A stretch of DNA of 64,000 nt from Arthrobacter crystallopoietes (lineage in GTDB: Bacteria > Actinomycetota > Actinomycetes > Actinomycetales > Micrococcaceae): NCBI RefSeq assembly GCF_002849715.1, contig NZ_CP018863.1:3968001-4032000 (forward strand), read 5' to 3'. The notes beneath the pieces are model-generated. The model searched no databases, was not told where the DNA came from, and saw only the letters and a program-made list of their open reading frames with translations. Both the position numbers and the translations under genes were made by a program. Positions 49,031 through 63,968 of the stretch are shown piece by piece; positions within the stretch are counted from its first letter, which is position 1; each line of letters starts with the position of its first letter.

Positions 49031-49220
49031 CTTGAGCCAATCTTGAGCTAAAGCAGGCCGCAGCGTTGAGCTTGCTCAGCCATGCTTGATGCAGCAGATG
49101 GCGAGAGCTGGAGCCGGAGTCCGAATACTGGGGAGTACACGGATCTTCAAGGCCAGCTCGTCTCAGCTCATCGGGTGCGGGGCACGGGCAGACTTTTGGG
49201 GAGGCTGCCCGCCCCGGCAC
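49031..49220 (+). repeat. Interspersed repeat, copy A
   Basis: This stretch shares long identical blocks with copies at 49618-49810 and 61269-61370. It opens with CTTGAGC at 49031 and 49042 (11-bp spacing), then TTGAGC-TTGCTCAGCC, GCAGATGGCGAGAGCTG, GCCGGAGTCC and GGTGCGGGGCACGGGCAG. An imperfect hairpin joins 49151-49157 to 49204-49210. Stop codons and frame differences between copies argue against a protein. It fills most of the gene-free 48995-49359 interval. Confidence 0.75.
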
Positions 49221-49359
49221 TCGGGTCCGGGACCAGCCGGCTGCATGCCTCCAGCGCCGGCTACAGATTCCCGTCGAAAGCTTTTGCTGATTCCATGGAT
49301 GAAACGGTTGCCAGGGGTGACAATGGAGTCGTCGGTAGCGAAGGAACGGAGGAAGCAAC

Positions 49360-49617: not shown

Positions 49618-49810
49618 CTTGAGCTAATCTTGAGCTAAGAATGCGCGAGCATTGAGCTTGCTCAGCCACTCTAGAACCAGCAGATGGCGAGAGCTGAAGC
49701 CGGAGTCCAGCTACTGGGGAGTGCATGGACATTCGCGGGCGGCTCGTCTCGGCTCATCCGGTGCGGGGCACGGGCAGGTCTTTGGGGAGACCGCCCGCCC
49801 CGGCACCCGT
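49618..49810 (+). repeat. Interspersed repeat, copy B
   Basis: Second copy, same orientation as copy A and co-linear along its whole length. CTTGAGC occurs at 49618 and 49629 (11-bp spacing). A perfect 8-bp stem pairs 49735-49742 with 49791-49798 around a 48-base loop. It ends 36 bp before the stop of the minus-strand PGPGW gene, so it would be transcribed as 3' UTR of that gene on the other strand. Confidence 0.75.
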
Positions 49811-49846: not shown

Positions 49847-50320
49847 TCATGGGGAAGAGTCCCGGCGGTGGGACGAGGTGCGTGTCAGACGGAACTTGCG
49901 GAAGCTGTAGGTCATCAGGGCAAGGGCCACCAGTCCGGAGACGATCAAGGTCGATCCCACAATCCAGCCTCCTGAAAGCCACCAACGGTCGCCGAAAGCC
50001 CACCAGTCCGGCGTCGGCGGCCGAACGCCCCACAGGATTCCTGCAGCAATAGCCACGAGCCCTCCCAAGGCGCTGGCCACGATGCGCGGCCAAGTCTTCA
50101 CTTCCTTCTGGGCTATTTTGAGCGCCTCGGTCTTGATCGGCACCAGCAGACGCTCGGCCCAGGCGTATCGCAGGGAAAGAACCACCAGGCCGGCGGCGAG
50201 GGCAAGCAGCCCGGGTCCGGGCAGTACAAGTGCGGCGAGTCCGACGGCGATGAGTGCCCAGCCCAGCACTTCAATGCCCGTTCGACGCAGCCAAGGCGGA
50301 ATGGCGTCGGTCCTCCCCAT
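49847..50320 (-). CDS. PGPGW-family transmembrane protein
   Basis: A 157-aa protein with two N-terminal helices around VGLAALVLPGPGLLALAAGL, the PGPGW/TIGR02611 signature, and two further helices in the C-terminal half ending in a basic tail. Function unknown. The start at 50320 (MGRTDAIPP) has GGGAGG nine bases upstream; an in-frame start nine codons earlier is less likely. It is divergent from the diaminopropionate operon with a 340-bp gap between. Confidence 0.8.
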   Translation of the reverse strand: MGRTDAIPPWLRRTGIEVLGWALIAVGLAALVLPGPGLLALAAGLVVLSLRYAWAERLLVPIKTEALKIAQKEVKTWPRIVASALGGLVAIAAGILWGVRPPTPDWWAFGDRWWLSGGWIVGSTLIVSGLVALALMTYSFRKFRLTRTSSHRRDSSP

Positions 50321-50487
50321 GAGCACATCCTCCCACAGCAGTGTCATTGGCTAAATGGAAGTCCCCCGGACGGCGCGCCACTCGTTGGTTCAGGGTCTAC
50401 TGGAACGTCTTAGGAAGGCTTCGCTCGGCCAGCAGTTCGTTGAGGGCAAGCCGGGCGAGGGGACGCCGGTTTTCGGCCTAACTTGCC

Positions 50488-50660: not shown

Positions 50661-51734
50661 ATGTCGATTATTAAGGATCCGCACCTGTTCAACGAGCAGA
50701 GCCTATTCGTCGACCTGGAAGGGGTGCTTGGCCGCCGCCTCTACCTGAAGATCGAGGGGTTCAACTTCGCCGGCTCGATCAAACTCAAGCCCGCGCGGGA
50801 AATGGTCGAGCGCGCCGAGCGGGAGGGGCTGATCGGGCCCGGCTCCACCCTTGTGGAGTCCTCGTCGGGCAACCTCGGCGTTGCACTCAGCATGATCGCG
50901 GCCAGCAAGGGATACCGCTTCGTGTGCGTTGTCGATCCGCGGTGCAATCCAACAACCCTGCAGCTGATGGAGTCACTCGGGGCAGAGGTTGACCTGGTCA
51001 CCGAACCGGATCCCGTCGACGGGTTCCTTGGGGCCCGGCTCAACCATGTCCGGGAACTGTGCGCGTCCGATGAGGGGTACGTCTGGCTGAACCAGTACGT
51101 CAATCCCGGCAACTGGGGCGCACACTACCGCTGGACTGCCCCCGAAATCGCTGCCGAATTCCCCGACCTCGACGTGCTGTTCGTCGGAGCCGGCACCACG
51201 GGAACACTAATGGGTTGCGCGCGGTACTTCCGTGAGCACCGCCCCGACGTCCGGATCGTGGCGGTTGATGCCGTCGGATCGGTCTCCTTCGGCTGCCCGC
51301 CGGCGCCCCGTCTGATCCCCGGCCTCGGCATGAGCGTGCGGCCACCCCAACTCGACGAGTCCTTGCTCGATGACGTGGTGTTCGTCGAGGAGCTGGATAC
51401 GGTGCGCGCCTGCCATCGCCTGGCCGCGAGCGGGTTGCTGCTTGGCGGGTCAACCGGGACCGTGGTCCACGGCGCCATGACGTGGCTTGACGACCACCAA
51501 GCCCAAGACGTCACCGCGGTGACCATCTCGCCCGACCTGGGCCGCCCATACCTGGACACCATCTACCAGCCCGACTGGGTGCTCGACCATTTTGGGGCCG
51601 AAGCGCTTGCCAGTGCGGATCAGACGGCAGACCTCGGTCTACAGTCAGAACCGCTGTCGGGGCCACAACTTCCCGCAGCCGCCCGGTTGAAAGACTCCGT
51701 GGCCGCTGCCTCACTAAGGAGCTTCTCGCAGTGA
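50661..51734 (+). CDS. sbnA: SbnA-like PLP synthase for the 2,3-diaminopropionate precursor
   Basis: A 357-aa fold-type II PLP enzyme of the cysteine-synthase family. The Schiff-base lysine is K41 in FNFAGSIKLKPA, the asparagine/phosphate loop is ESSSGNLG (66-72), and GAGTTGT and GGSTGT form the phosphate-binding end. SbnA makes N-(1-amino-1-carboxy-2-ethyl)-glutamate from O-phosphoserine and glutamate, which SbnB then oxidises to L-2,3-diaminopropionate. The presence of an SbnB-like gene in the same operon is the main reason for this call over O-acetylserine sulfhydrylase. GGGAGA precedes the ATG. It overlaps the next gene by four bases (GTGA). The last ~40 residues are an extra tail. Confidence 0.88.
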   Translation: MSIIKDPHLFNEQSLFVDLEGVLGRRLYLKIEGFNFAGSIKLKPAREMVERAEREGLIGPGSTLVESSSGNLGVALSMIAASKGYRFVCVVDPRCNPTTLQLMESLGAEVDLVTEPDPVDGFLGARLNHVRELCASDEGYVWLNQYVNPGNWGAHYRWTAPEIAAEFPDLDVLFVGAGTTGTLMGCARYFREHRPDVRIVAVDAVGSVSFGCPPAPRLIPGLGMSVRPPQLDESLLDDVVFVEELDTVRACHRLAASGLLLGGSTGTVVHGAMTWLDDHQAQDVTAVTISPDLGRPYLDTIYQPDWVLDHFGAEALASADQTADLGLQSEPLSGPQLPAAARLKDSVAAASLRSFSQ

Positions 51735-54700
51735 ACAAGTCCGTGGACACACTGTCAACGTCGCCAGGTCCCACGATTCCAATCATTCCGATGAATCCCC
51801 CGACTCCCGCGGCGACCGCGGCTCAGGCTGGGAACGGCTCTCCAGCAACTCCGGCCTCGGGCGCGGGCATTGCCCTGGAGCGCCGGCTGGCGGATCTTCT
51901 AGCAGCAGTGGTGAAGAAGGACGACGTCCCTGTGGACGCCAACTTCTTCCTCGAATTAGGCGCGGACTCGCTGGTCATGGCGCAGTTCTGCGCTCGGGTG
52001 CGCAAACAGCCGGACCTGCCCGCCGTGTCGATCAAGGACATCTACCAGCACCCATCGATCTCGGCGCTGGCGGCGGCCCTGGCACCGCCGGAAGCGCCGC
52101 CTGCGACGGCGCAGGTGAACGTGCAGGACCAGTTGGCGGAGGTGTTGGCCAGCATACTGAACGTCGAGCACGTCTCGGTGGAGGCCAACTTCTTCCACGA
52201 CCTGGGCGCGGACTCGCTGGTCATGGCGCAGTTCTGCGCCCGCGTGCGCAAGCAGCCGGACCTGCCGGCGATCTCCATCAAGGACATCTACCAGCACCCA
52301 ACAATCTCGGCGCTGGCCGCGGCCCTGGCGCCGGCGGAAGAGGCATCGGCGACGGCGCAGATGCAGGACCGGTTGGCGGAGGTGCTGGCCGGTGTACTGG
52401 GCGGCAGGCAAGTGGCGGTGGACAGCCACTTCTTCCAGGACCTGGGCGCGGACTCGCTGCTGATGGCCAGGTTCTGCGCCCGGGTGCGCAAGCAGCCGGA
52501 CCTGCCGGCGATCTCTATCAAGGACATCTACCAGCACCCGACGATCTCGGCGCTGGCCGCGGCCCTGGCACCGGCGGAACCGGCGACATCGCCGGTGCAG
52601 GACCGGCTGGCCGAGATGCTGGGCGGCGTGCTGGGCATTGACCATGTCCCGGTGGACAGCGACTTTTTCCAAGACCTGGGCGCGGACTCGCTGGTGATGG
52701 CCAAGTTCTGTGCCCGGGTGCGCAAGCAGCCTGACCTGCCCAAGGTGTCCATGAAGGACATCTACGGCAGCCCGAATATCTCCGCCCTCGCGGCGGCCTT
52801 GCAAGGCCCCTCGCAGCAAGAGCAGCGGCAGGAGCCCTCCCCGGCTCTGGCATCCATACCGGAGACGCCGCGGCCGATGGACGTGCGGACCTGGGAGTAC
52901 GTCACCTGCGGCGCCCTGCAGGTGCTCGTCTACGTCGGCTACTGCCTCCTCGCCGGCTGGCTCGCGATCGTAGGGTACCAGTGGATCTTCCCGGAGGCGG
53001 GGCCGGGTAACCACGACTGGCTGGGCCACGGGATGAGCTTCGGGGAAATCTACCTGCGGTCGATCGCTTTCTCTGCGGCGACTTTCGTGCTGCTGTGCAT
53101 CCTGCCGGTGGCGGCGAAGTGGATTTTCGTGGGGCGCTTCCGGCCTCGGGAGATCCGTATCTGGAGTCTGGCCTATTTCCGGTTCTGGCTGGTCAAGGCA
53201 TTGATGCGCACCTCGCCACTCTCATTGATGACCGGTTCCCCTCTGACGACCTTCTACCTGAGGGCCATGGGCGCGAAGGTTGGCCGCAACGTGATGATCA
53301 TGACCAATCGGCTGCCGGTCTGCACCGATCTGCTGACCATCGGGGAGGGGACGGTGATCCGCAAGGATGCGGTCCTCAACGGCTACCGCGCCCATGGTGG
53401 CGTCATCCAGTTGGGTGCGCTGACGCTGGGCCGGGACGTAATCGTCGGAGAAGGCAGTGTCCTGGACATCGACACGGGAATGGGGGACGGTTCGCAGTTA
53501 GCCCACCGCTCCACTTTGTACACGGGCCAAATCGTGCCCGCAGGCGAACGGTGGCACGGTTCGCCGGGCAGGCGCACCGATGTCGACTACGGCGGGGTCG
53601 AGGCGATGTCTTACCGGCCGTGGCGGCGGGCATGGTTCGCCATATCCCAACTCGTTTCCACCCTTGGGTTGGGCCGCACCATGTGGAGTCTGGCCATCGC
53701 ACTGGTCATCCTGGCGCAACCGCGCGTGGCGGCGCTTCTGGAGGTGCAGCCTTTCGCGTTTACAGACTGGGCCTTCTACGCTGATGCTATTACCTACGCC
53801 GGTCTGGCCGTCTTCGGCGGAACGGTCATGGCATTGGTCGTCATAACGACCGTGCCGCGGTTGCTCCAACTCGCCGTGAAGCCCGACAGGGTGTATCCGC
53901 TGTTCGGACTGCGGGACGCGGCGGCGCGGGCGGTGGCGAGGTTGACCAACAGTCCCCTGCTTGGAGGGTTGTTCGGCGACAGCTCGTACGTCGTGAACTA
54001 TGTGCGGGCCATTGGGTACAAGCAGCCGCAGGTCCAGCAGACCGGCTCGAACCTTGGCACGGTATTCAAGCACGATAACCCGTTCCTTACGACGATCGGC
54101 AGCGGGACGATGATTGCCGACGCCGTGTCGTTCATGAACACCGACTACTCGGCGACGTCCTTCAAGGTCAGTCGGGCGGCGATTGGGGCGCACAATTTCC
54201 TTGGCAACGCCGTTCTCTATCCGGCCGGGGCCAAGACCGGAGACAACTGCCTGCTCGCAACCAAGGTGATGGTCCCCATCGACGGACCGGTGCGCCATGA
54301 CGTGGGCCTGCTCGGATCACCCGCGTTCGAGATTCCCCGCTCGGTCCTGCGGGACGCCCTTCCCGAGGAGCATGCCAGCCGGAGCCACTTCCGCCGGGAC
54401 CTGGCGGCCAAGAACAGGCACAACAGGCACACGATGGCCCTCCTGATGCTTACCCGGTGGTTCAACATGTCGCTTGCCATGGTGATCATGCTCGCCGCCC
54501 TCGAACTGTCCGACCAGTTTGGTTTCCTTGCCCTCAGCGGGGCGTTCGTCGTGATGCTCTTCGTCGGCTTGCTGGTCCCCATCGGCATCGAGCACCTCGT
54601 GACGGGGTTCCGGAGGCTCCAGCCCCGGCTCTGCTCCATCTACAACCCATACTTCTGGTGGCACGAGCGGTACTGGAAGCTGATGACCCAAAGCCGGTAC

Positions 54701-55105
54701 ATGGCCATCCTCAACGGGACGCCGTTCAAGCCGCTGGCTTGGCGTCTGCTGGACGTGCGGATCGGGGCCCGTGTCTTCGACGACGGTTGCGGAATCATCG
54801 AGCGCAGCCTCGTGACAATCGGCTCCCGCTGCACGCTGAACGCCGGCAGCACGGTTCAATCCCACTCCCAAGAGGACGGAATGTTCAAGTCCGACCACAA
54901 CGTCATTGGCGACGACGTCACGCTCGGCGTCGGAGCCTTTGTCCACTACGGCGTGACCGTCGAAAACGGTGCCGTCGTCGCTGCCGACTCCTTCGTAATG
55001 AAGGGGACGACCCTCACCTCGGGATCCCTGTGGGGTGGCAACCCGGCCGAAGAGGCCCGAGCCGCCGCCACGACCCCCGTCGCACTGGAAAGGCCCGTAT
55101 CATGA
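51731..55105 (+). CDS. Four carrier domains fused to Pls-type NRPS terminal membrane domain
   Basis: An 1124-aa protein with no adenylation or thioesterase domain. Residues ~47-118, 131-200, 211-280 and 290-357 are four phosphopantetheine carrier domains with modification serines S80, S162, S242 and S320, each in LGADSL. After a Pro/Gln linker, residues ~385-1110 match the NRPS terminal domain of poly-lysine synthetase (TIGR02353 type): hydrophobic helices alternate with hexapeptide-rich left-handed beta-helix segments (for example GAKVGRNVMIMTNRLPV and IGDDVTLGVGAFVHYG). In Pls this C-terminal part catalyses iterative amide-bond formation in the membrane. Here carriers and polymerase are on one chain and the adenylation domain is on the next. 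The GTG start overlaps the sbnA stop, and the stop overlaps the next start. Confidence 0.87.
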   Translation: MNKSVDTLSTSPGPTIPIIPMNPPTPAATAAQAGNGSPATPASGAGIALERRLADLLAAVVKKDDVPVDANFFLELGADSLVMAQFCARVRKQPDLPAVSIKDIYQHPSISALAAALAPPEAPPATAQVNVQDQLAEVLASILNVEHVSVEANFFHDLGADSLVMAQFCARVRKQPDLPAISIKDIYQHPTISALAAALAPAEEASATAQMQDRLAEVLAGVLGGRQVAVDSHFFQDLGADSLLMARFCARVRKQPDLPAISIKDIYQHPTISALAAALAPAEPATSPVQDRLAEMLGGVLGIDHVPVDSDFFQDLGADSLVMAKFCARVRKQPDLPKVSMKDIYGSPNISALAAALQGPSQQEQRQEPSPALASIPETPRPMDVRTWEYVTCGALQVLVYVGYCLLAGWLAIVGYQWIFPEAGPGNHDWLGHGMSFGEIYLRSIAFSAATFVLLCILPVAAKWIFVGRFRPREIRIWSLAYFRFWLVKALMRTSPLSLMTGSPLTTFYLRAMGAKVGRNVMIMTNRLPVCTDLLTIGEGTVIRKDAVLNGYRAHGGVIQLGALTLGRDVIVGEGSVLDIDTGMGDGSQLAHRSTLYTGQIVPAGERWHGSPGRRTDVDYGGVEAMSYRPWRRAWFAISQLVSTLGLGRTMWSLAIALVILAQPRVAALLEVQPFAFTDWAFYADAITYAGLAVFGGTVMALVVITTVPRLLQLAVKPDRVYPLFGLRDAAARAVARLTNSPLLGGLFGDSSYVVNYVRAIGYKQPQVQQTGSNLGTVFKHDNPFLTTIGSGTMIADAVSFMNTDYSATSFKVSRAAIGAHNFLGNAVLYPAGAKTGDNCLLATKVMVPIDGPVRHDVGLLGSPAFEIPRSVLRDALPEEHASRSHFRRDLAAKNRHNRHTMALLMLTRWFNMSLAMVIMLAALELSDQFGFLALSGAFVVMLFVGLLVPIGIEHLVTGFRRLQPRLCSIYNPYFWWHERYWKLMTQSRYMAILNGTPFKPLAWRLLDVRIGARVFDDGCGIIERSLVTIGSRCTLNAGSTVQSHSQEDGMFKSDHNVIGDDVTLGVGAFVHYGVTVENGAVVAADSFVMKGTTLTSGSLWGGNPAEEARAAATTPVALERPVS
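51869..52801 (+). repeat. Fourfold tandem carrier-domain repeat in DNA
   Basis: Four consecutive units of about 234-246 bp encode the carrier domains. The segment RVRKQPDLP is identical in all four and KDIYQHP in three. Units 2 and 3 also share long identical nucleotide runs, indicating recent duplication or ongoing gene conversion. Unit 4 is the most diverged (KDIYGSP). Confidence 0.85.
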
Positions 55106-57693
55106 CCACCACCTCTGCGCTGACCTGCCGCACCGCCGCCGACCACTCGTCCGATCCGGGCCGCAGCCGGCTCGCCCTTCCAGCAGCCGCCCCGACGACT
55201 ATTCCCAGATGGACACGGCATCCCCAGGCCGGACAGGAGCGGGTTGAGGTGGCGGTTCCCGAGGACCTGCGCACCTCCGTGAGGCTGACGGCCCGTGCGT
55301 TGGAGACGACACCCGGCTCGCTCTGGCTGGCGGCCCATGCGCGGGTACTGCACGCCTTATCCGGCGAGACGGAAATCGCCATCGGATGCGTGGACTCTGC
55401 GGGGACCTGGCGGTGCGACCTCGTTCTAAGCCACGTGTCCTGGCGGAGCCTGGTCGCCGAGGCACATGACCGACAGGCCCTGGCCGCCCGCGGGGAGGCC
55501 CGTCACAAAACCGCATCTCCGGGGTACGAGGTGGTGTTCGACCTTCAGGGCGGCGATGCAGAGCTACCGGAGGGCATCGTCCTCGGGGCCACCGTCCCGA
55601 CTGTAGCCGGGCGCGAGGTGCTCCTGCTCCGATACCGGCGGGACGTCCTCGACCACGATGCTGCCCTCAGGATCGCCGGCTACCACCTGGCCGCCCTCCG
55701 CCACCTGGTCGCCAACCCTGAAGCGGAGCCTGCCGACGCCGACCTGCTCGATGCGGACGAGCGCCGCCTCCAGCTCGAGCAACTGGCCGGACCAGAGCGT
55801 CCCCGCCCCCGACGACGCTTCCACCAGTTGTTCGAGGAGCACGTCCGGCTTCACCCCGAACGCATCGCCGCGGTCCAGGACACGCGCGAGTGGACGTACG
55901 CGGAGTTGAACGGCCGTGCCAACCGGCTGGCCCGCGCCCTGCTGGCGCGCGGACTACAGTCCGAGGACGTCGTTGCGGTCGTCGCCAAACGAGACCTGGA
56001 GTGGATGGCCGCGGTCATCGGCATCCTCAAGGCCGGAGGCGCGTACCTACCGATCGAACCGCAATTCCCCGCCGACCGGATCGCCAGAACACTCACCCGG
56101 GCAGGGAGCCGCATGGCCCTGACCGAGGAAGGCAGCAGCGCCACGCTGGATGATGCACTCGACGGGATGCCTTCGGTCACCAAGGTCCTCTTCGAGGACA
56201 TTGAGGCCGAAGGGCACGCCGCCGACGATCTCGGCGTGGAGGTGCGTCCGGACCAACTCGCCTACGTCTACTTCACCTCTGGCTCCACGGGCGAACCGAA
56301 GGGCGCGATGTGCGAGCACGACGGGATGGTGAACCACCTGTACGCCAAGATCGAGGACCTGGGGATCGGCCCCGGCGACGTCGTCGCCCAGAGTGCCCCC
56401 CAATGCTTCGACATCTCGCTGTGGCAACTGGTCTCGGCCCTGCTCGTCGGCGGCCGCACACTCATCGTCTGGCAGGACCGTATCCTCGACGTCGAGCGGT
56501 TCGTCGACACCGTGGAACGTGGGGCGGTGGCGGTCTTCCAAGTCGTCCCGTCGTATCTGGACGCGGTGGTCGCGTACTTGGCCGGAAAACCCCGCGCGCT
56601 ACCGCACCTCCGGTGCGTCTCCGCGACCGGAGAGGCTCTGAAACGTGAGCTGGTCCGCCGCTGGTTCGACGTAATGCCGAACGTCAAGCTGGTCAATGCC
56701 TACGGACTGACGGAAACCTCGGACGACACGAACCACGAGGTAATGAGCGCAGCGCCCGCGGGCGGCTCCGTGCCACTTGGCCCGCCGATCCCGAACGTCC
56801 GGATCCACATCCTCGACGAGCGGCAGCGGCTCGTGCCGCTCGGGGCACCGGGCGAGATTGCCTTCTCCGGGGTGTGTGTGGGCCGCGGCTACATTAACGA
56901 CCCGGACCGCACGGCACAGGCCTACTCCGCTGACCCCTACGTGGACGGGGCGCGGCTCTACCGGGCTGGCGACTATGGGCGCTGGTCACCGGACGGCAAG
57001 CTGGAGTACCTTGGCCGGCGAGACAACCAGGTCAAGATCTCCGGGTTCCGCATCGAGATCGGCGACATCGAGAACGCGCTGTTGCATGTTCCCGGCGTCC
57101 GCGACGGCGCCGTCGTCGTCGGCGAGGGCGGCGGGCAGTCCAAGTTCCTGGTGGCGTTCTACTCTGGCGACCGGCCCCTCGAGGTCGCCGAGATCCACAG
57201 CGAAATGGCCTCGCGCGTTCCGGGCTACATGGTTCCGTCGACGTACAGGTGGCAGGAGGTCCTGCCCCTGACCGGCAACGGGAAGATCGACCGGAAGGCT
57301 TTGACCCGCATGGCGGGGGAGGTCGTTCCCGAGGCCGGCAGCCCCACGGAGACGCTCACGGCCACCGAGCAGCGGCTGGCCGAAGCATGGGCGAGCGTCC
57401 TCGGCATCCCGGCAGGCCGGATCGGTGGTCAGGACTCGTTCTTCGCGCTGGGCGGCACCTCCCTGTCCGCGGTGAAACTCGCCGTCCTGCTCAAGCGCGC
57501 GGTGTCGATCAAGGACATCATGCAGACGCCCGTCCTAGCTGACCTGGCGATCCTGCTCGAGGCCTCGTCCTTGGAGAACGCTGCCGAACCGCCCGCACCC
57601 ACGCGAGCGGGAACCGCCGCAGAGCCCGCCTCCATGTCCCCGACACCGACAAGACACTCCAATCCGCTACCCGTGAAACGAAAGGACCTCTGA
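55102..57693 (+). CDS. NRPS module: truncated condensation region, adenylation, carrier
   Basis: An 863-aa protein. Residues ~45-215 resemble the C-terminal half of a condensation domain but lack HHxxxDG. Residues ~240-735 are an adenylation domain with A3 YFTSGSTGEPKG (390-401), A4 QCFDISLWQLV, A5 NAYGLTET and A10 lysine K728 in NGKID. Residues ~752-822 are a carrier domain with S787 in GGTSL. The ten specificity positions read by eye are D437, I438, W441, S484, S507, T509, A533, D541, D542, K728. The two adjacent aspartates could suit a diamino substrate such as diaminopropionate; this is inference. The ATG at 55102 overlaps the previous stop (ATGA). The last ~40 residues are a Pro/Ala tail. 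Confidence 0.88.
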   Translation: MTTTSALTCRTAADHSSDPGRSRLALPAAAPTTIPRWTRHPQAGQERVEVAVPEDLRTSVRLTARALETTPGSLWLAAHARVLHALSGETEIAIGCVDSAGTWRCDLVLSHVSWRSLVAEAHDRQALAARGEARHKTASPGYEVVFDLQGGDAELPEGIVLGATVPTVAGREVLLLRYRRDVLDHDAALRIAGYHLAALRHLVANPEAEPADADLLDADERRLQLEQLAGPERPRPRRRFHQLFEEHVRLHPERIAAVQDTREWTYAELNGRANRLARALLARGLQSEDVVAVVAKRDLEWMAAVIGILKAGGAYLPIEPQFPADRIARTLTRAGSRMALTEEGSSATLDDALDGMPSVTKVLFEDIEAEGHAADDLGVEVRPDQLAYVYFTSGSTGEPKGAMCEHDGMVNHLYAKIEDLGIGPGDVVAQSAPQCFDISLWQLVSALLVGGRTLIVWQDRILDVERFVDTVERGAVAVFQVVPSYLDAVVAYLAGKPRALPHLRCVSATGEALKRELVRRWFDVMPNVKLVNAYGLTETSDDTNHEVMSAAPAGGSVPLGPPIPNVRIHILDERQRLVPLGAPGEIAFSGVCVGRGYINDPDRTAQAYSADPYVDGARLYRAGDYGRWSPDGKLEYLGRRDNQVKISGFRIEIGDIENALLHVPGVRDGAVVVGEGGGQSKFLVAFYSGDRPLEVAEIHSEMASRVPGYMVPSTYRWQEVLPLTGNGKIDRKALTRMAGEVVPEAGSPTETLTATEQRLAEAWASVLGIPAGRIGGQDSFFALGGTSLSAVKLAVLLKRAVSIKDIMQTPVLADLAILLEASSLENAAEPPAPTRAGTAAEPASMSPTPTRHSNPLPVKRKDL

Positions 57694-58685
57694 TGTCGTC
57701 TCCTTCACCCAAGATCCAGATCGATATGGAACGCCAAGCCGGCCGGGCACCGATGCTCGCCGTCGAGGACGGCCACGACCCTGTGCAGTGGGCCGAAGAG
57801 AACCGCGAGGCGCTGCGCGCGGCGGTGGACGAGAATGGGGCCGTCCTGGTCCGCGGGCTGGGCCTCAGTGATCCAGCCCAGGTGGCCGAAGTCTACCAGC
57901 GGCTGGTTCCGGGCGGCCTCATGCCGGACCGGGAGGCCTTCGCCACCAGGCAGCCCTACCTGGACGGCGTGTACTCGTCCCTCACCTGGCCCGCGAATCA
58001 GCCTATGTGCATGCACCACGAGCTCAGCTACGCGCTTGAGTTCCCCGGCCTGATGCTCTTCGCCTGCCTCCAGGCACCCAGTGTCGGTGGCGTGACCGGT
58101 ATCGCGGACGCCCGCTCGGTGCTCGAAGCCATACCGGCCGACATCGTCCGGCGGTTCGAAAGCGAAGGATGGCTGCTCGCCCGCAGCTACAACGAAGATA
58201 TCGGAGCCACCTACGAGGAGGCGTTCGGGGTCGCCGACCGCGCTGCCGTCGAAAACTACTGCCGGGCCCACGCGATCGAGTTCGAGTGGCAGCCCGACGG
58301 GGAGCTCCGCACCCGCCAACGGCGCCCTGCCGTTGTCCGGCATCCGGTGACCGGCGAGCGCTGCTGGTTCAACCAGGTCGCGTTCTTGAGCGAATGGACC
58401 ATCGCGCCGGAGGTGAGGGAGTACCTGGTGGACGTTTACGGTCCCGATGGGCTGCCGTTCAACACCCGCTTCGGCAACGGCGAGCCGATCGGCGAGGACA
58501 TCATCGCTCTCTTGAACGAGGTCTACGAGGCCCACACCCTTCGAACGCCGTGGGAGACCGGGGACTTCATGCTCGTAGACAACGTGCGCATGGCCCACAG
58601 CCGCGAGGCGTACGAGGGTCCAAGGGAGATCCTCGTTGGCATGGCCGAGCCACGCAATGTATTCGATCTCGATACCCACACCTAG
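57693..58685 (+). CDS. Fe(II)/2-oxoglutarate dioxygenase (TauD/SyrP-like)
   Basis: A 330-aa TauD-family oxygenase. The metal ligands are H108 and E110 in MHHELSY and H302 in RMAHSREAY; R311 in GPREIL is the likely 2-oxoglutarate anchor. MHHELSYALEFPGLMLF followed by LQAPSVGG resembles SyrP, which beta-hydroxylates aspartate on a carrier protein, so a carrier-bound amino acid is a plausible substrate here. Its ATG overlaps the NRPS stop (TGATG), giving translational coupling. Confidence 0.88.
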   Translation: MSSPSPKIQIDMERQAGRAPMLAVEDGHDPVQWAEENREALRAAVDENGAVLVRGLGLSDPAQVAEVYQRLVPGGLMPDREAFATRQPYLDGVYSSLTWPANQPMCMHHELSYALEFPGLMLFACLQAPSVGGVTGIADARSVLEAIPADIVRRFESEGWLLARSYNEDIGATYEEAFGVADRAAVENYCRAHAIEFEWQPDGELRTRQRRPAVVRHPVTGERCWFNQVAFLSEWTIAPEVREYLVDVYGPDGLPFNTRFGNGEPIGEDIIALLNEVYEAHTLRTPWETGDFMLVDNVRMAHSREAYEGPREILVGMAEPRNVFDLDTHT

Positions 58686-58696
58686 GACGGTGCACA

Positions 58697-59764
58697 ATGA
58701 CAGAATTCGCCATTTCCCCAGTGATAGCCGCGGCTGAACCGAAGACGGTTCCCCCCTTCGCGGTCATCTCCGGAGCCCAGGTACAGCAGGTGCTCCAGGG
58801 TCGCGAGAAGCAGGTCGTCGAACTGGTCGAGCAGACCTACCGGGTGCATGCGGCCGGAGACTCGGTGAACCCGCCGTCCTATTTCCTGCGCTTCCCGGAC
58901 CGGCCCACCTCCCGCATCATCGCCCTGCCCGCCTCAGTCGGCGGGGAGGTGGAGGTTGACGGCATCAAGTGGGTCTCCAGCTTCCCGGACAACGTGGCGT
59001 CGGGGATTCCGCGTGCCTCCGCAGTGTTGATCCTCAACGACCGGGCGACGGGCTACCCCTTCGCATGCATGGAGAGCTCCGTTATCAGCGCCTCCAGGAC
59101 AGCTGCATCGGCCGCCGCGGCTGCGGACTGGCTCAGTCGAGGCCGGGGGCGTCCCAGACGCGTCGGGTTCTTCGGCGTGGGGCTCATCGCCCGCTACATC
59201 CACACCTTCCTGAACGCGACCGACTGGTCCTTCGACGAGATCGGGGTGTTCGACCTCTCGGGCGAGAGCGCGGAGGGTTTCAAGGGCTATCTCGAACGCA
59301 GCGGCACCCGAGCCCGGGTGACCGTGCATGAGGGCCCCGAGCAGCTGATTCGGAGCAGCGATCTCGTCGTGTTCGCCACGGTGGCGAGCCAGCCACACGT
59401 GCACGACACGACGTGGTTCGCGCACAACCCGCTGGTGCTGCACGTGTCCCTGCGCGACCTGGCCCCGGAGATCCTGTTGGCATCGACCAACATCCTCGAC
59501 GACGTCGACCACTGCTTGAAAGCCGGGACGTCGGCCCACCTCGTGGAGCAGATGGTCGGCCACCGGGACTTCGTGGACGGGACCTTGGCCGACGTCATGG
59601 ACGGCAGGGTCTCGCCGGCGGCTGATCGCCCTGTCGTGTTCTCGCCGTTCGGCCTGGGCGTGCTCGATCTGGCGGTGGGCAAGTATGTCTACGACGAACT
59701 TGTCAGCAGCGGCCAGCTCCGGGTGGTCGAGGACTTCTTTTCCGAACTGCGCAGGTACGGCTGA
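58697..59764 (+). CDS. sbnB: SbnB-like dehydrogenase of the ornithine cyclodeaminase family
   Basis: A 355-aa NAD-dependent enzyme. GIKWVSSFPDN (K91 region) and the Rossmann motif GFFGVGLIARYI (from G157) match the ornithine-cyclodeaminase/mu-crystallin family in its SbnB form. SbnB oxidatively cleaves the SbnA product to L-2,3-diaminopropionate and 2-oxoglutarate. Starts at ATG 58697, 11 bp after the dioxygenase stop; a much longer in-frame extension lies inside the dioxygenase gene and is rejected. Paired with the sbnA-like gene at the front of the operon. Confidence 0.9.
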   Translation: MTEFAISPVIAAAEPKTVPPFAVISGAQVQQVLQGREKQVVELVEQTYRVHAAGDSVNPPSYFLRFPDRPTSRIIALPASVGGEVEVDGIKWVSSFPDNVASGIPRASAVLILNDRATGYPFACMESSVISASRTAASAAAAADWLSRGRGRPRRVGFFGVGLIARYIHTFLNATDWSFDEIGVFDLSGESAEGFKGYLERSGTRARVTVHEGPEQLIRSSDLVVFATVASQPHVHDTTWFAHNPLVLHVSLRDLAPEILLASTNILDDVDHCLKAGTSAHLVEQMVGHRDFVDGTLADVMDGRVSPAADRPVVFSPFGLGVLDLAVGKYVYDELVSSGQLRVVEDFFSELRRYG

Positions 59765-59815
59765 CCCGGCGGCCCAACCACGCTCATCAATTCGCACCCA
59801 CCGAGGAGTGACACA

Positions 59816-60958
59816 ATGCTCTCGTTACCGCAGATGCTGGGGAATGTGTCCAAGGCACACGTCCAGTCCCCTGAGGACTGGGCACGGTCGGTCACCGACG
59901 TCCTGCGGGACGCCGCGATCTACCACCAGGCCCATAACGGCTTCTACCGTGCCCAGTGTGACGCGTTGGGAGTCGATCCCGCCGCGATCAACGACATCAA
60001 CGACCTGCAAGACCTGCCCCTGTTGCCGGTCGGCATGTTTAAACGTCCCGACGCCCAAGTGCTACTCACCTGCTCCCTGGCCGACGTTGAGACCGAGACC
60101 AGCTCCAGCGGAACCCGCGGTGTCCCGTCTGTCGCCCGCCGCAACAGCGAGACAGTGACCCGGGCTCTGGTTGGCCTGATCGGGACTTACCGGGAGTTCT
60201 TCAGCCTGTCCGGGGGCGCGGGTCTTTTCTTGAACCCGTCGGACTCCGAAGCTTCGGAGATGGGTCTGCTCAAGGACTTCAACATCCTGAACAGCGTCTT
60301 CGACCACCACGTATATCTCGTTGCCGACCAGTCGTTCGATGTCAGGGAGGCCCTGGAGCACCTGCGCCGGTGGAAGGGCCACATGACCCGGCACATCGTC
60401 TGTCCGCCGTTCCTCATCGAGCGGCTCCTCCGGTTCCTCGAGCAGGAGAAGGTCAATGTGCGCTTGGACCCGTACAGCATGATCATTACGCTCGGCGGTT
60501 GGAAGCGGCACACGTCCGAAGCCATTCCTGCCGAGGGCTTTCGGGAGCAGTGCCACGACCTGCTCGGTGTGCGCCCGGGGAACGTGCGCGACATGTACGG
60601 GATGATTGAGTCGAACATGCTCGCTGTCGAATGCCACCTGCATCGCAAGCACGTTCCGCCTTGGTGCTACATCTCCATCCGGGATCCTGGCCAGATCGGC
60701 AGGGAGCTCGATCCGGGGGGCACCGGCACAATTGCCGTACTGGACGCCCTCAACACCAGCTACCCCGGTTTCCTCCTCACCGACGACGTGGGCGACGTCG
60801 AGACCGGCACCTGCGGGTGCGGGAGAACCGGCCAGGTCATCAACTTCCGCCGTCGGGGGCAGGGCGGCGGGTTTGGCCACTGCCCCGTCAGCCTCGAGCG
60901 CTACCTCGGCTCGGGTACCACCGCCAACGATGAGGCGGCGGCTCTCATGAGGGCCTGA
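59816..60958 (+). CDS. LuxE-type acyl-protein synthetase
   Basis: A 380-aa protein of the LuxE family within the adenylate-forming superfamily. The nucleotide-binding loop SSSGTRGVPS is near residue 97, ITLGGWKRH and DMYGMIESN follow, and a CGCGRTGQV cysteine cluster lies near the C-terminus. LuxE activates a fatty acid as acyl-AMP and passes it to a protein thiol. No LuxC reductase or LuxD thioesterase is present, so bioluminescence is excluded; loading an acyl or other carboxylic starter onto one of the operon's five carrier domains is a reasonable hypothesis. It begins 51 bp after sbnB with GAGGAG before the ATG and is the last gene of the operon. Confidence 0.87.
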   Translation: MLSLPQMLGNVSKAHVQSPEDWARSVTDVLRDAAIYHQAHNGFYRAQCDALGVDPAAINDINDLQDLPLLPVGMFKRPDAQVLLTCSLADVETETSSSGTRGVPSVARRNSETVTRALVGLIGTYREFFSLSGGAGLFLNPSDSEASEMGLLKDFNILNSVFDHHVYLVADQSFDVREALEHLRRWKGHMTRHIVCPPFLIERLLRFLEQEKVNVRLDPYSMIITLGGWKRHTSEAIPAEGFREQCHDLLGVRPGNVRDMYGMIESNMLAVECHLHRKHVPPWCYISIRDPGQIGRELDPGGTGTIAVLDALNTSYPGFLLTDDVGDVETGTCGCGRTGQVINFRRRGQGGGFGHCPVSLERYLGSGTTANDEAAALMRA

Positions 60959-62073
60959 TTTCGCGGTGCCTCAGCCGGCGCTCCTCCTTCGTTGCCGCGC
61001 CCTTGCGAAGCGACGCTCGATGCTGCCGAGCGGGACCGTCGCGCTCATGAGCGTTTCGGTCATCTGCTCCAGCACGGCCATGTCGACGTGCGACTTGGCC
61101 TCGAATGGTGGCCGGCATCGTCCACCCGCCGCCGGTCTTCGCTCGAATTATAGTTCCCGACGTCGGCGGCCTGTAGGTCACCAATTCATTGGCTCCGGCG
61201 ATCAGCGCGGTCTCACGTGTGTCCTCGGAAAAGCGTGGGCGGTAGCCGTTGATGCTGTTGTATGGCTATGAGGCCGGAGTCCGGTTTCTGGGGCGAGCAG
61301 GACATTCGCGGGCGGCTCGTCTCGGCTCATGCACGATCAGGTCCTTGGGAGGGCCGCCCGCCCCGGCATACGCGCATCAAGACCGCTCCGATGGGGCCAC
61401 TGGCCCCAACCGGAGCGGGCCAACCGGCTGACGACACGGCAGCGCGAGGTCATGCTGCACATGGGGAGGGTCCTGCTCAACGACGAGGAGCATCCTTCAG
61501 CAGGGAGCACCGAGCGAAATGGTCCCGAAAACTAGGGGGCAACCGCCCCTCATCCGGGGCTTACCGTCCTGGTGAATGGATTGCACACTAGGTATATCCG
61601 TTCCGGCAGCGACAATTCCCCCCACCGAAGGGACGGCCGGTCGAGCCGGAGCCTACGTTTCCCAACCCGCTGGCTCCGGCTCGACACCTGTCATTACCGG
61701 GGTCCAGCTGGCACAATTCGAGCATGATCGTGCTGCCGCCGCCGGGGCCGCCCGAACTGAAGCCGGAGGAGATCGGGAGCCTGAACCCCTATGCCGACGA
61801 TATGGCCGGCTTCATACAAGCAGCGCTGGTCAGTGAACGCAACAGCATCGCCAGCCAGCACCATGGCCTCGAAGGCAGCTTCCATGACGGCATCGCCCGA
61901 CGGCAAGAGTCGACGAGCAGGCTCTCGCCATTCAGGCCGGTTTCCAACTGCACCGATCCGCCGTCGAAACGTTTCCGTCACGGGTCCCGTCGCTGCAGCC
62001 CGCGAGGCACAAGACCGCGGCGGCCGGCATGATCCGGCGCATCCTCGCGCCTAAGGGAGACACAGGTCAGAGC
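60959..62073. other. 1.1-kb stretch without a convincing gene
   Basis: Between the LuxE-like gene and the secreted nuclease there are only short overlapping frames with unconvincing composition. One minus-strand stretch at about 60963-61110 reads like the end of a protein (RPPFEAKSHVDMAVLEQMTE... to a stop) and may be a gene relic. Repeat copy C is at 61269-61370 and a short GGGG/CCCC hairpin is near 61533-61549. No strong terminator for the NRPS operon was found. Confidence 0.55.
61269..61370 (+). repeat. Interspersed repeat, copy C
   Basis: Third, shorter copy in the same orientation as A and B. It retains GCCGGAGTCC, CTGGGG, ACATTCGCGGGCGGCTCGTC and CCGCCCGCCCCGGCA, but lacks the CTTGAGC block at the 5' side. 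GCGGGCGGC and GCCGCCCGC form a perfect 9-bp stem. It lies 310 bp after the end of the NRPS operon. Confidence 0.7.
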
Positions 62074-63651
62074 CTACTTGAGCTTCACTTTGGCCAGCAC
62101 CATGTTGTGGTCGGATGCGGGGGTGGAGCGCAGCCGACCGTTGCGGTCGATGTCCAGGACGTTTTCGTAGGAGACGGTGCCGGCGATGTTCTTGGTGAAG
62201 ATGTAGTCGATCCGTCCGAACGTGGATTTCTGCTGCTTCTTGAAGCTGTTGGTCGTGGGGTAAAGGAAGTCGGTCTTGGCGGCTGAGGAGGCGGTGTCGG
62301 TCCAGCCCGCCTTGATCATGGCCTCGTGCGGCAGGTTCGAGGGTGTCACGTAGAAGCTCGAGTTCATGTCACCGCCGCTGACCACTGGGAGCTTGCGGAT
62401 GTTGATGGCCTTCATCCGCTTTTCGATCAGCTGCATCGTCGAGGTCTTCGACACCGCGCCCTTGACCGGGAGCTTGGGGGAGACGTGGAAGGAGACGGCG
62501 TAGAACTGCTTGCCGGTCTTCTTCGATTTCAGCAGGGCCCAGGCGGCGCCCCGTTGATCCTCGCCCTTGGCGACCGGGAGGGCGAAGGTGCCGCGCTTGA
62601 GCAGCGTGTATTTGGACGTTTTGTAGGCGATCCGGTTCACGTACTGCTGGGTGCCGGCCTTCTCTGGAGTGCGGTCGAGTGCGTAGCCAGCCTTCTTCAG
62701 GTGTCCCTGGAAGTCGGTCATCGCTTTGGTGTTCCTGGTGCCGGGGATATTCACATTCAGCGCCTCCTGCAGGAGGAGCACATCCGGGTTCTTGGCTTTG
62801 ATGGTCCGCAGGTGGGTCATCTTGCGGGTGTTCCAGTGCGGGACGCTGATGCCGGAGAGTTTGCAGCTGGCGCAGAGCAGGTTCTGACTGGCCACGGTCA
62901 GCGTCTCGGTGCCGCGGACCCCCGGCGCTGCCGGGTAGGCAGTGATGCGTGAGGACGTGCGGGTCTTGAAGGTCTTGTTGTGCGCCTGCACGCGGATGAA
63001 CGTCGGGTACGAGGACCGGGAACCGGCGGTGAGGTTCTTGATCGTGAAGCTGGTCCCGGTGATGTTTCGGTAGGTCCTGGGCCTCAGGGTCATGGCCATG
63101 TTGTCGGCGACCAGCACTGTGTAGTGGGTGGTGTACGCGGTCTTGTTCCAGCTGACCGTAATGCTGTCCGTGCCGCCCTTCGTCTTCAGCGGCGTGAATG
63201 CACCCGGGTAGTTGGCCCCGGTCATGGTCTTCAACGTCGCGGACCAGGGCGAACGATTCCATGTTCCCCACGGCTGGCCCTTGACGGGTGTGAGCGCACG
63301 GTACTGGATGTAGTAGGTGGTCGCGTTGGTGAGGCCGCCGATCCAGCGGCTGTTGACCTTCTCCTCGATTTTCGCGCCGACGAAGTCTGCGCGGGTGCCG
63401 TAGCGGACTTCCCAGCGTCCGACATCGCCGAACGCCGGCCACACGAGGGTCATACTGTTATAGCCCGGTGCGGCAGCGGTCTTCGGCGCCGGCAGGGGAG
63501 CCTGGCTTGAAGTGACGACTATGACTTTGCTCGCGGCAACGGCAGACGCAGAGGCAGCCGGTGCGGCAAAGGCTGTGCCGGGCACGGCAGCCGCGGTCAG
63601 GGAAGTGGTGAGCAGCACCGCGGCGGCTCGGCGCAGAAGAGAAGTTTTCAA
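62074..63651 (-). CDS. Secreted endonuclease/exonuclease/phosphatase family protein
   Basis: A 525-aa exported protein. The TTG at 63651 was chosen as start: GGAG lies seven bases upstream and the product begins MKTSLLRRAAAVLLTTSLTA, a classic signal peptide with cleavage near AFA-AP. Residues ~50-240 look like fibronectin type III-type repeats. The C-terminal ~270 residues are an EEP domain with LLQEALN (metal-binding Glu), VSGGDMNSSF (Asp and Asn) and PASDHNMVLAKV (Asp/His). It could be a nuclease or a phosphoesterase. The longer frame from an ATG at 63789 adds 46 residues ahead of the signal peptide and is less likely. Confidence 0.87.
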   Translation of the reverse strand: MKTSLLRRAAAVLLTTSLTAAAVPGTAFAAPAASASAVAASKVIVVTSSQAPLPAPKTAAAPGYNSMTLVWPAFGDVGRWEVRYGTRADFVGAKIEEKVNSRWIGGLTNATTYYIQYRALTPVKGQPWGTWNRSPWSATLKTMTGANYPGAFTPLKTKGGTDSITVSWNKTAYTTHYTVLVADNMAMTLRPRTYRNITGTSFTIKNLTAGSRSSYPTFIRVQAHNKTFKTRTSSRITAYPAAPGVRGTETLTVASQNLLCASCKLSGISVPHWNTRKMTHLRTIKAKNPDVLLLQEALNVNIPGTRNTKAMTDFQGHLKKAGYALDRTPEKAGTQQYVNRIAYKTSKYTLLKRGTFALPVAKGEDQRGAAWALLKSKKTGKQFYAVSFHVSPKLPVKGAVSKTSTMQLIEKRMKAINIRKLPVVSGGDMNSSFYVTPSNLPHEAMIKAGWTDTASSAAKTDFLYPTTNSFKKQQKSTFGRIDYIFTKNIAGTVSYENVLDIDRNGRLRSTPASDHNMVLAKVKLK

Positions 63652-63968
63652 TGGGACGCTCCGGGTGACGAGGTGGGCTACAAAGGAGACACGCGCCGAA
63701 ACTCCGAAACCAGCCCCCGGAGAAAAGTATGGGGCAAAAACGGGGGATTGGGGAAACGCTAAACCGATGCAAATTGAAAGCAGTCGCACACTCTAAAAGG
63801 GCTGAAGACGCCGTGCCCATGTCCGGTTCCACAGCCTCGGTTCGGTCCGTTCTTCCTCCTGCGCGGTTCGATGAAGGCCATGAAGAGACGATGCTGCCGG
63901 GCCTTCCTACGGCCGTCGCACTTAGCCGGCGTGTGGATGAAAAGCACTTTCCCATGGCCGGAGGCAAC
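63652..63968. other. Upstream region of the secreted nuclease, no gene seen
   Basis: About 320 bp between the nuclease start and the terminator at the right edge. Only short frames without ribosome-binding sites were found; it presumably carries the nuclease promoter. Confidence 0.5.

Follow-up and report, generated by a model that had tools for sequence, protein, structure and literature searches.

Six co-directional, tightly packed genes of Arthrobacter crystallopoietes are located at positions 50661-60958 on the + strand of the window, i.e., the whole stretch of 64,000 nucleotides analysed here (contig NZ_CP018863.1, positions 3,968,001 to 4,032,000; host genome of 5.03 Mb). According to the list of open reading frames (ORFs) and its coordinates, their order is SbnA, PcpT, AT, TauD, SbnB, and LuxE. 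We propose, with a probability of roughly 0.58, that PcpT is a membrane polymerase of the poly-lysine synthetase (Pls) type whose own adenylation domain was lost and whose carriers were multiplied, and that it would be fed in trans by a module dedicated to L-2,3-diaminopropionate (Dap). The parts, their family membership, the adenylation pocket, the conservation of the genes, and the loss of the Pls adenylation domain are read from the sequence. Six tightly coupled genes had already been listed in a preceding interpretation of the DNA letters (hereafter the sequence-only reading), and this gene list proved right in ORFs, Pfam, and NCBIfam, coordinates included.

The membrane terminal domain of PcpT matches TIGR02353 with 669 bits (cut-off 423) and keeps the invariant residues common to Pls-type rows. 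In the AlphaFold model (mean pLDDT 77) helix pairs are present, and hexapeptide matches were obtained for two of three regions; in the published model of PosA, the delta-poly-L-ornithine synthetase, pairs of transmembrane helices occur together with three left-handed beta-helices (PMC10522769). The structure matches did not include a solved full-length membrane domain of the Pls type, possibly just for want of a listed one. The known enzymes Pls, PosA, and PDAPs (the poly-Dap synthetase of Streptomyces albulus PD-1) unite adenylation, carrier, and terminal domain in a single chain with a single carrier, whereas PcpT shows no AMP-binding domain in Pfam and contains four carriers that are 64-72% identical to one another. 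The multi-carrier membrane machine postulated in the sequence-only reading is thus indeed encoded here.

In a tree of 92 TIGR02353 domains (LG+G4, with SH-aLRT as the sole support measure and some long branches flagged), the PcpT proteins are contained in one clade of 79 rows with a support of 97. The other Pls rows are placed outside, including two of this genome, the third having fallen below the length cut. L060, situated inside the PcpT clade and belonging to a full cluster, possesses an adenylation core without the C-terminal subdomain and with an altered P-loop; this core ends at protein position 340, corresponding to profile position 327 of 384. On Pseudonocardia plasmids, an adenylation-like region with an altered P-loop is followed by three carriers and the terminal domain in case of L174, where TauD adjoins, and the adenylation relic is a separate gene in case of L175. 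At both plasmid loci a Pls-type protein with decayed adenylation is located beside TauD, and no AT is annotated in the stretch read. For the Pls gene beside the L057 cluster, Pfam gives no match to the adenylation C-terminus, and its code has Gln at position 3. Judged by these domain inventories, PcpT is a Pls that lost its own adenylation domain, with decayed relics retained by relatives.

Except for the PcpT rows, carrier number is uniform: all 14 Pls rows have one carrier per protein, including the relic-bearing L057 and L060 and the cut row L073. PcpT rows mostly have one to four, with six in a single row (P0087) and none in a few truncated ones. Among 16 Micrococcaceae proteins, a carrier resembles its positional counterpart in other species (0.87 for the first, 0.78 for the last) more closely than the other carriers of its own protein (0.75); accordingly, the duplications seem to predate the species compared. 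P0115, considered as a natural fusion of membrane domain and AT, was dropped, since its PcpT match ends at residue 579 and the stretch preceding AT is in another frame.

AT has a different origin. Its N-terminal ~190 residues match a condensation domain over the C-terminal half of the latter. Residues ~24-215 align with EntF from approximately residue 200 and with SrfA-C and McyB from residue 206; model confidence lies mostly between 78 and 96 across residues 31-215, dropping near 24-30 and 137-140. The HH...D string is absent from the AT protein of the window and occurs in 2 of 49 orthologue frames (L090 and L049). The nearly invariant pocket code DIWQSTADDK, with Ile at position 2 and Trp at position 3, lacks the D-x-E feature of Pls, PosA, and PDAPs. 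PosA and Pls share the TIGR02353-type domain with PcpT, but PosA is a single chain with the code DMEHNGTVSK, of which Glu at position 3 is essential, and Phe occupies position 2 in the enzymes for poly-Dap (PDAP) and poly-diaminobutyrate (PDAB) (PMC10522769). Three further TIGR02353 proteins of the genome exceed the cut-off, all of the single-chain Pls type, with the codes DFECLSVVTK (two; PDAP/PDAB-like, Phe at position 2) and DAESIGTVVK (one). They are encoded outside the window, at 1472851-1474929, 4526072-4528150, and 3642683-3644740 of G000:C1 (L091-L093). Due to the pocket and the half condensation domain of AT, both of the non-ribosomal peptide synthetase (NRPS) type, and the differing codes of the Pls proteins of this genome, PcpT and AT do not represent one Pls cut in two. 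The term "split Pls" of the sequence-only reading therefore holds insofar as carriers plus membrane domain and adenylation reside on separate proteins, but not in the sense of a simply divided enzyme. As far as domain composition tells, AT is an ordinary NRPS-type piece with half a condensation domain and PcpT descends from Pls by adenylation-domain loss, the lost domain having been replaced. In eight AT orthologues, a thioesterase-like end with a GHSSG or GHSAG motif is appended (Pfam-confirmed in both tested, L057 and L162), so that the mode of release may vary between lineages. A Cys is present in carrier-to-carrier shuttles such as SyrC; as the motif of this end contains Ser instead, a shuttle role is not argued for it.

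Both SbnA and SbnB exceed their NCBIfam equivalog cut-offs (TIGR03945 and TIGR03944, scores in the table below), and SbnB is the sole over-cut-off TIGR03944 match in the genome. The solved domain nearest to the adenylation domain of AT is SulM A3 (9n1u, Dap bound), ranking first by structure as well as by pocket stretch; in the latter comparison the pocket of PvdL, which uses 2,4-diaminobutyrate (Dab), is a close second. With both enzymes over their cut-offs and the pocket closest to a Dap-bound domain, the dedication of the operon to Dap, suggested beforehand on account of an SbnA/SbnB-like pair, appears well supported. A literature search for printed adenylation pocket codes found none. The likeness of AT to solanimycin SolG reported by NCBIfam is uninformative, SolG being a serine module (PMC10204066).

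From 51 loci retrieved, 45 contain a PcpT match of at least 43% identity. These comprise 36 PcpT-type loci, six loci where an in-frame adenylation domain precedes the match (L063, L066, L067, L077, L078, and L083, the latter in pieces), and three fragments (L082, L084, and L085). SbnA, AT, TauD, and SbnB occur alongside PcpT in 23 of the 36 PcpT-type loci, spread over several actinobacterial families; seven are cut by contig ends (L036, L047, L049, L052, L062, L064, and L081), and six are without this core (L039, L045, L051, L080, L068, and L071). Except for L068 and L071 (partial AT match), SbnA and SbnB are both present in the AT-bearing loci uncut by contig ends (23/25). Among 197 genomes of the family, PcpT (at least 70% identity) was detected in 16, TauD in the same 16, and LuxE in 15 of these and in none of the 181 others; since PcpT, TauD, and LuxE co-occur within the same 16 genomes, the association is not due to chance. 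Across 296 class-level genomes, a TauD match of at least 53% was found at 13 loci outside the family, of which 12 were fetched (all but G280). SbnA, SbnB, and AT are present in all 12, PcpT in 10 (not in L162 and L164), and LuxE in none. Homologous clusters consistently devoid of the SbnA/SbnB pair, which had been named as an argument against Dap dedication, were thus not observed. In case of five loci with weaker TauD matches (L165-L169), other NRPS-like matches were found, with SbnA and SbnB only in L165. One relative (genome G009) harbors the cluster in incomplete, rearranged pieces at several places (L087 and L088).

Of the 11 full-core loci in the Micrococcaceae, 10 contain LuxE, the Kocuria locus L043 being the exception, as opposed to none of the 12 full-core loci elsewhere. 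LuxE is not a core gene and, among the clusters seen, occurs in the Micrococcaceae only. Of the set named in the sequence-only reading, SbnA, SbnB, and PcpT go together in 23 of 36 PcpT-type loci, but LuxE joins them in that family only. The protein matches the Pfam family with 125 bits (cut-off 24.9) and remains below the NCBIfam LuxE equivalog cut-off (135.5 versus 550). Cys356 is present in 110 of 120 rows, window included; a catalytic claim is not made for it, as the alignment to solved LuxE ends before that region. Relatives of approximately 54-61% identity (P0167-P0240) occur in Micromonospora, Mycobacteroides, Mycobacterium, and Streptomyces. At a distant LuxE locus (L170), tblastn detected no other operon gene, and by eye the neighbours are unrelated to Dap.

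The oxygenase TauD contains the facial triad H-x-D/E...H as H108, E110, and H302, kept in 43 of 44 rows. Taking these parts together, L-Dap would be made by SbnA and SbnB, and the adenylation domain of AT would activate it and charge the AT carrier, the half condensation domain being a presumptive relic without catalytic motif. The TauD-family enzyme would then oxidise carrier-bound Dap, most likely by hydroxylation, and the PcpT carriers would also be charged by AT, either by trans-loading or by carrier-to-carrier transfer. At the membrane, the TIGR02353 domain would form the amide bonds of an oxidised or partly oxidised Dap oligomer or polymer. LuxE may add or activate an end group in the Micrococcaceae, but this role is a guess and LuxE is the least understood part of the operon. 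We infer trans-loading by analogy to capreomycin, where one adenylation domain supplies Dap in trans to a carrier that has none (CmnA-A1/CmnI, the reported Dap shift of CmnI being +86 Da), although within an ordinary NRPS with a condensation domain and not a membrane polymerase (PMC12400406). Oxidation on the carrier is inferred from the conserved triad and the DdaC/DdaD precedent described below. Dap synthesis, Dap loading, and the membrane machine are deduced from the families to which the proteins belong. That the trans-loading module oxidises Dap on the carrier prior to polymerisation, which would result in the first oxidised poly-Dap, with a LuxE-installed end group in the Micrococcaceae, is a tentative extension to which we give somewhat less than even odds.

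The ligases of the dapdiamide pathway are absent from the six operon genes. In that pathway, a Dap derivative is bound to the adenylation-carrier protein DdaD and oxidised there by the 2-oxoglutarate (2OG) oxygenase DdaC, which is similar to TauD in size (329 aa) and motif (His104-Ser105-Glu106), but epoxidises a fumaramoyl group; a membrane polymerase is not mentioned in the available part of that source (PMC12451424). Sulfazecin biosynthesis likewise combines a Dap-activating adenylation domain (SulM A3), a Dap-making pair (SulG/SulH), and a 2OG oxygenase, SulO, which hydroxylates the Dap-derived ring; there, however, a beta-lactam is formed with the aid of a sulfotransferase and a thioesterase, its C-3 being the site of SulO action (PMC6097109, PMC11298585). 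Neither a monobactam-type sulfotransferase nor a beta-lactam-forming thioesterase was detected by Pfam among the six operon genes. PDAPs resembles the present system in that Dap is made by cysteine-synthase-like and ornithine-cyclodeaminase-like enzymes and that a carrier is combined with a terminal membrane domain, but it is a single chain that includes an adenylation domain and only one carrier, and the Dap genes are not located near its gene (PMC4668381). In the operon described here, adenylation is instead assigned to an NRPS-type protein of its own, and the four carriers, the oxygenase, and LuxE are encoded alongside it.

Several observations weigh against the proposal. As Dap and Dab pockets are alike, the AT pocket does not exclude Dab on its own. 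Many actinobacterial adenylation domains need an MbtH-like protein, and no MbtH match exists in the whole genome. If Dap were hydroxylated at a carbon that carries a free amine, the product would be unstable; for this reason, TauD may act after acylation of the side amine. L068 and L071 lack SbnB and TauD, L068 containing SbnA and AT only and L071 a partial AT. Orphan PcpT genes without partners nearby were found at L039, L045, L051, L080, L176, and L177. By strain name, the Arthrobacter strains with L039, L045, and L051 also hold full clusters (L044, L041, and L038); L176 and L177 are located on plasmids, one of Arthrobacter and one of Streptomyces. Conversely, AT, TauD, and SbnA/SbnB occur without PcpT in the stretch read at L162, L164, and L165, and the AT module can thus serve other products. 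At L164, L165, and L171-L173, the set of AT, TauD, and SbnA/SbnB is embedded in conventional multi-module NRPS surroundings.

Such surroundings at L164 and L165, where the stretch read contains no PcpT, as well as the thioesterase-like ends of eight AT orthologues, as expected for a defined released product, would fit a TIGR02353 domain that makes merely one or two bonds, yielding a short Dap peptide or antimetabolite. We regard this as unlikely, though deserving attention, because PcpT holds a full-length over-cut-off TIGR02353 match with the invariant residues of Pls-type rows and characterised members produce polymers, those of the PosA reaction comprising 7-12 units (PMC10522769). A transfer of Dap from the carrier to an envelope lipid or polymer, adding positive charge without polymerisation as in the Dlt system, would agree with the hexapeptide-acyltransferase-like regions at the membrane, with the lack of an exporter among the six operon genes in Pfam, and with matches of AT to DltA models, albeit below their cut-offs. 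Such decoration is nevertheless improbable, since the same domain is linked to amide-bond polymers in PosA and PDAPs (PMC4668381, PMC10522769) and Pfam detects no gene for wall or lipid synthesis in the operon. Although the operon has Dap genes, adenylation, carriers, and TIGR02353 in common with S. albulus PD-1 (PMC4668381), an ordinary split synthetase of plain poly-Dap, with AT as its adenylation half and TauD and LuxE incidental, is highly improbable in view of an AT pocket with neither the Glu that PosA needs at position 3 nor the Phe that PDAP synthetases have at position 2, the half condensation domain on AT, and TauD in 16 of 16 genomes with PcpT.

The genes overlap by 4 bases at the SbnA/PcpT and PcpT/AT junctions and by 1 base at AT/TauD, followed by gaps of 11 and 51 bases. 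Along the operon, Pfam reports the series PALP, four PP-binding, AMP-binding plus PP-binding, TauD, OCD_Mu_crystall, and LuxE. The nearest gene-like long ORFs on both sides (49847-50347 and 62074-63789, from the ORF list only) are on the - strand. Promoter and terminator scans yielded matches no commoner than in shuffles. Copies of an interspersed repeat (100-173 bases) lie on both sides of the operon (49051-49223, 49637-49809, and 61269-61368); these are three of its six matches in the genome.

Table. Coordinates of the operon genes and their domains within the window.
Feature	Position	Strand	Evidence
SbnA-type pyridoxal phosphate enzyme, predicted first half of Dap synthesis, 357 aa	50661..51734	+	PF00291; TIGR03945 395 bits vs cut-off 350
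PcpT, four tandem carriers and TIGR02353 membrane domain, without adenylation domain, 1124 aa	51731..55105	+	PF00550 x4
Four 240-base direct repeats encoding the PcpT carriers, each with LGADSL serine motif	51823..52782	+	repeat family D1
TIGR02353 domain of PcpT, transmembrane helices and hexapeptide-type strands	52904..55048	+	residues 392-1106, 669 bits
AT, half condensation domain, adenylation and carrier, 863 aa	55102..57693	+	
C-terminal lobe of condensation domain of AT, residues ~24-215, no HHxxxD	55171..55746	+	aligned to EntF, SrfA-C, McyB
Adenylation domain of AT, pocket DIWQSTADDK	55831..57285	+	PF00501 and PF13193
Carrier of AT	57370..57552	+	PF00550, residues 757-817
TauD-family Fe(II)/2OG oxygenase, H108-x-E110...H302	57693..58685	+	PF02668 160 bits
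SbnB-type dehydrogenase, predicted second half of Dap synthesis, 355 aa	58697..59764	+	TIGR03944 422 bits vs cut-off 327
LuxE-family protein, 380 aa	59816..60958	+	PF04443 125 bits; match to solved LuxE 7xc6

A review names Pls homologues in Arthrobacter, its available part making no mention of separate loading (PMC8506220), and no description of a layout with outsourced loading was found by title and abstract among the openly licensed papers listed. The PcpT system probably works like Pls, yet departs from that family in the three features tested (single chain, single carrier, and D-x-E code). Neither the structure of the TIGR02353 domain nor the way in which it forms bonds has been proven (PMC10522769), partly because adenylation, carrier, and polymerase reside in a single membrane protein. 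If the proposal is true, loading, tailoring, and polymerisation, fused in the characterised Pls-type enzymes, would be separated, and such a natural version with separate proteins would allow each part to be supplied, omitted, or swapped in vitro. It would also represent a route by which a homopolymer synthetase gains monomer tailoring. Pls-type synthetases yield antimicrobial cationic polymers. The operon may point to modified poly-amino acids that are missed by genome mining for single-chain Pls.
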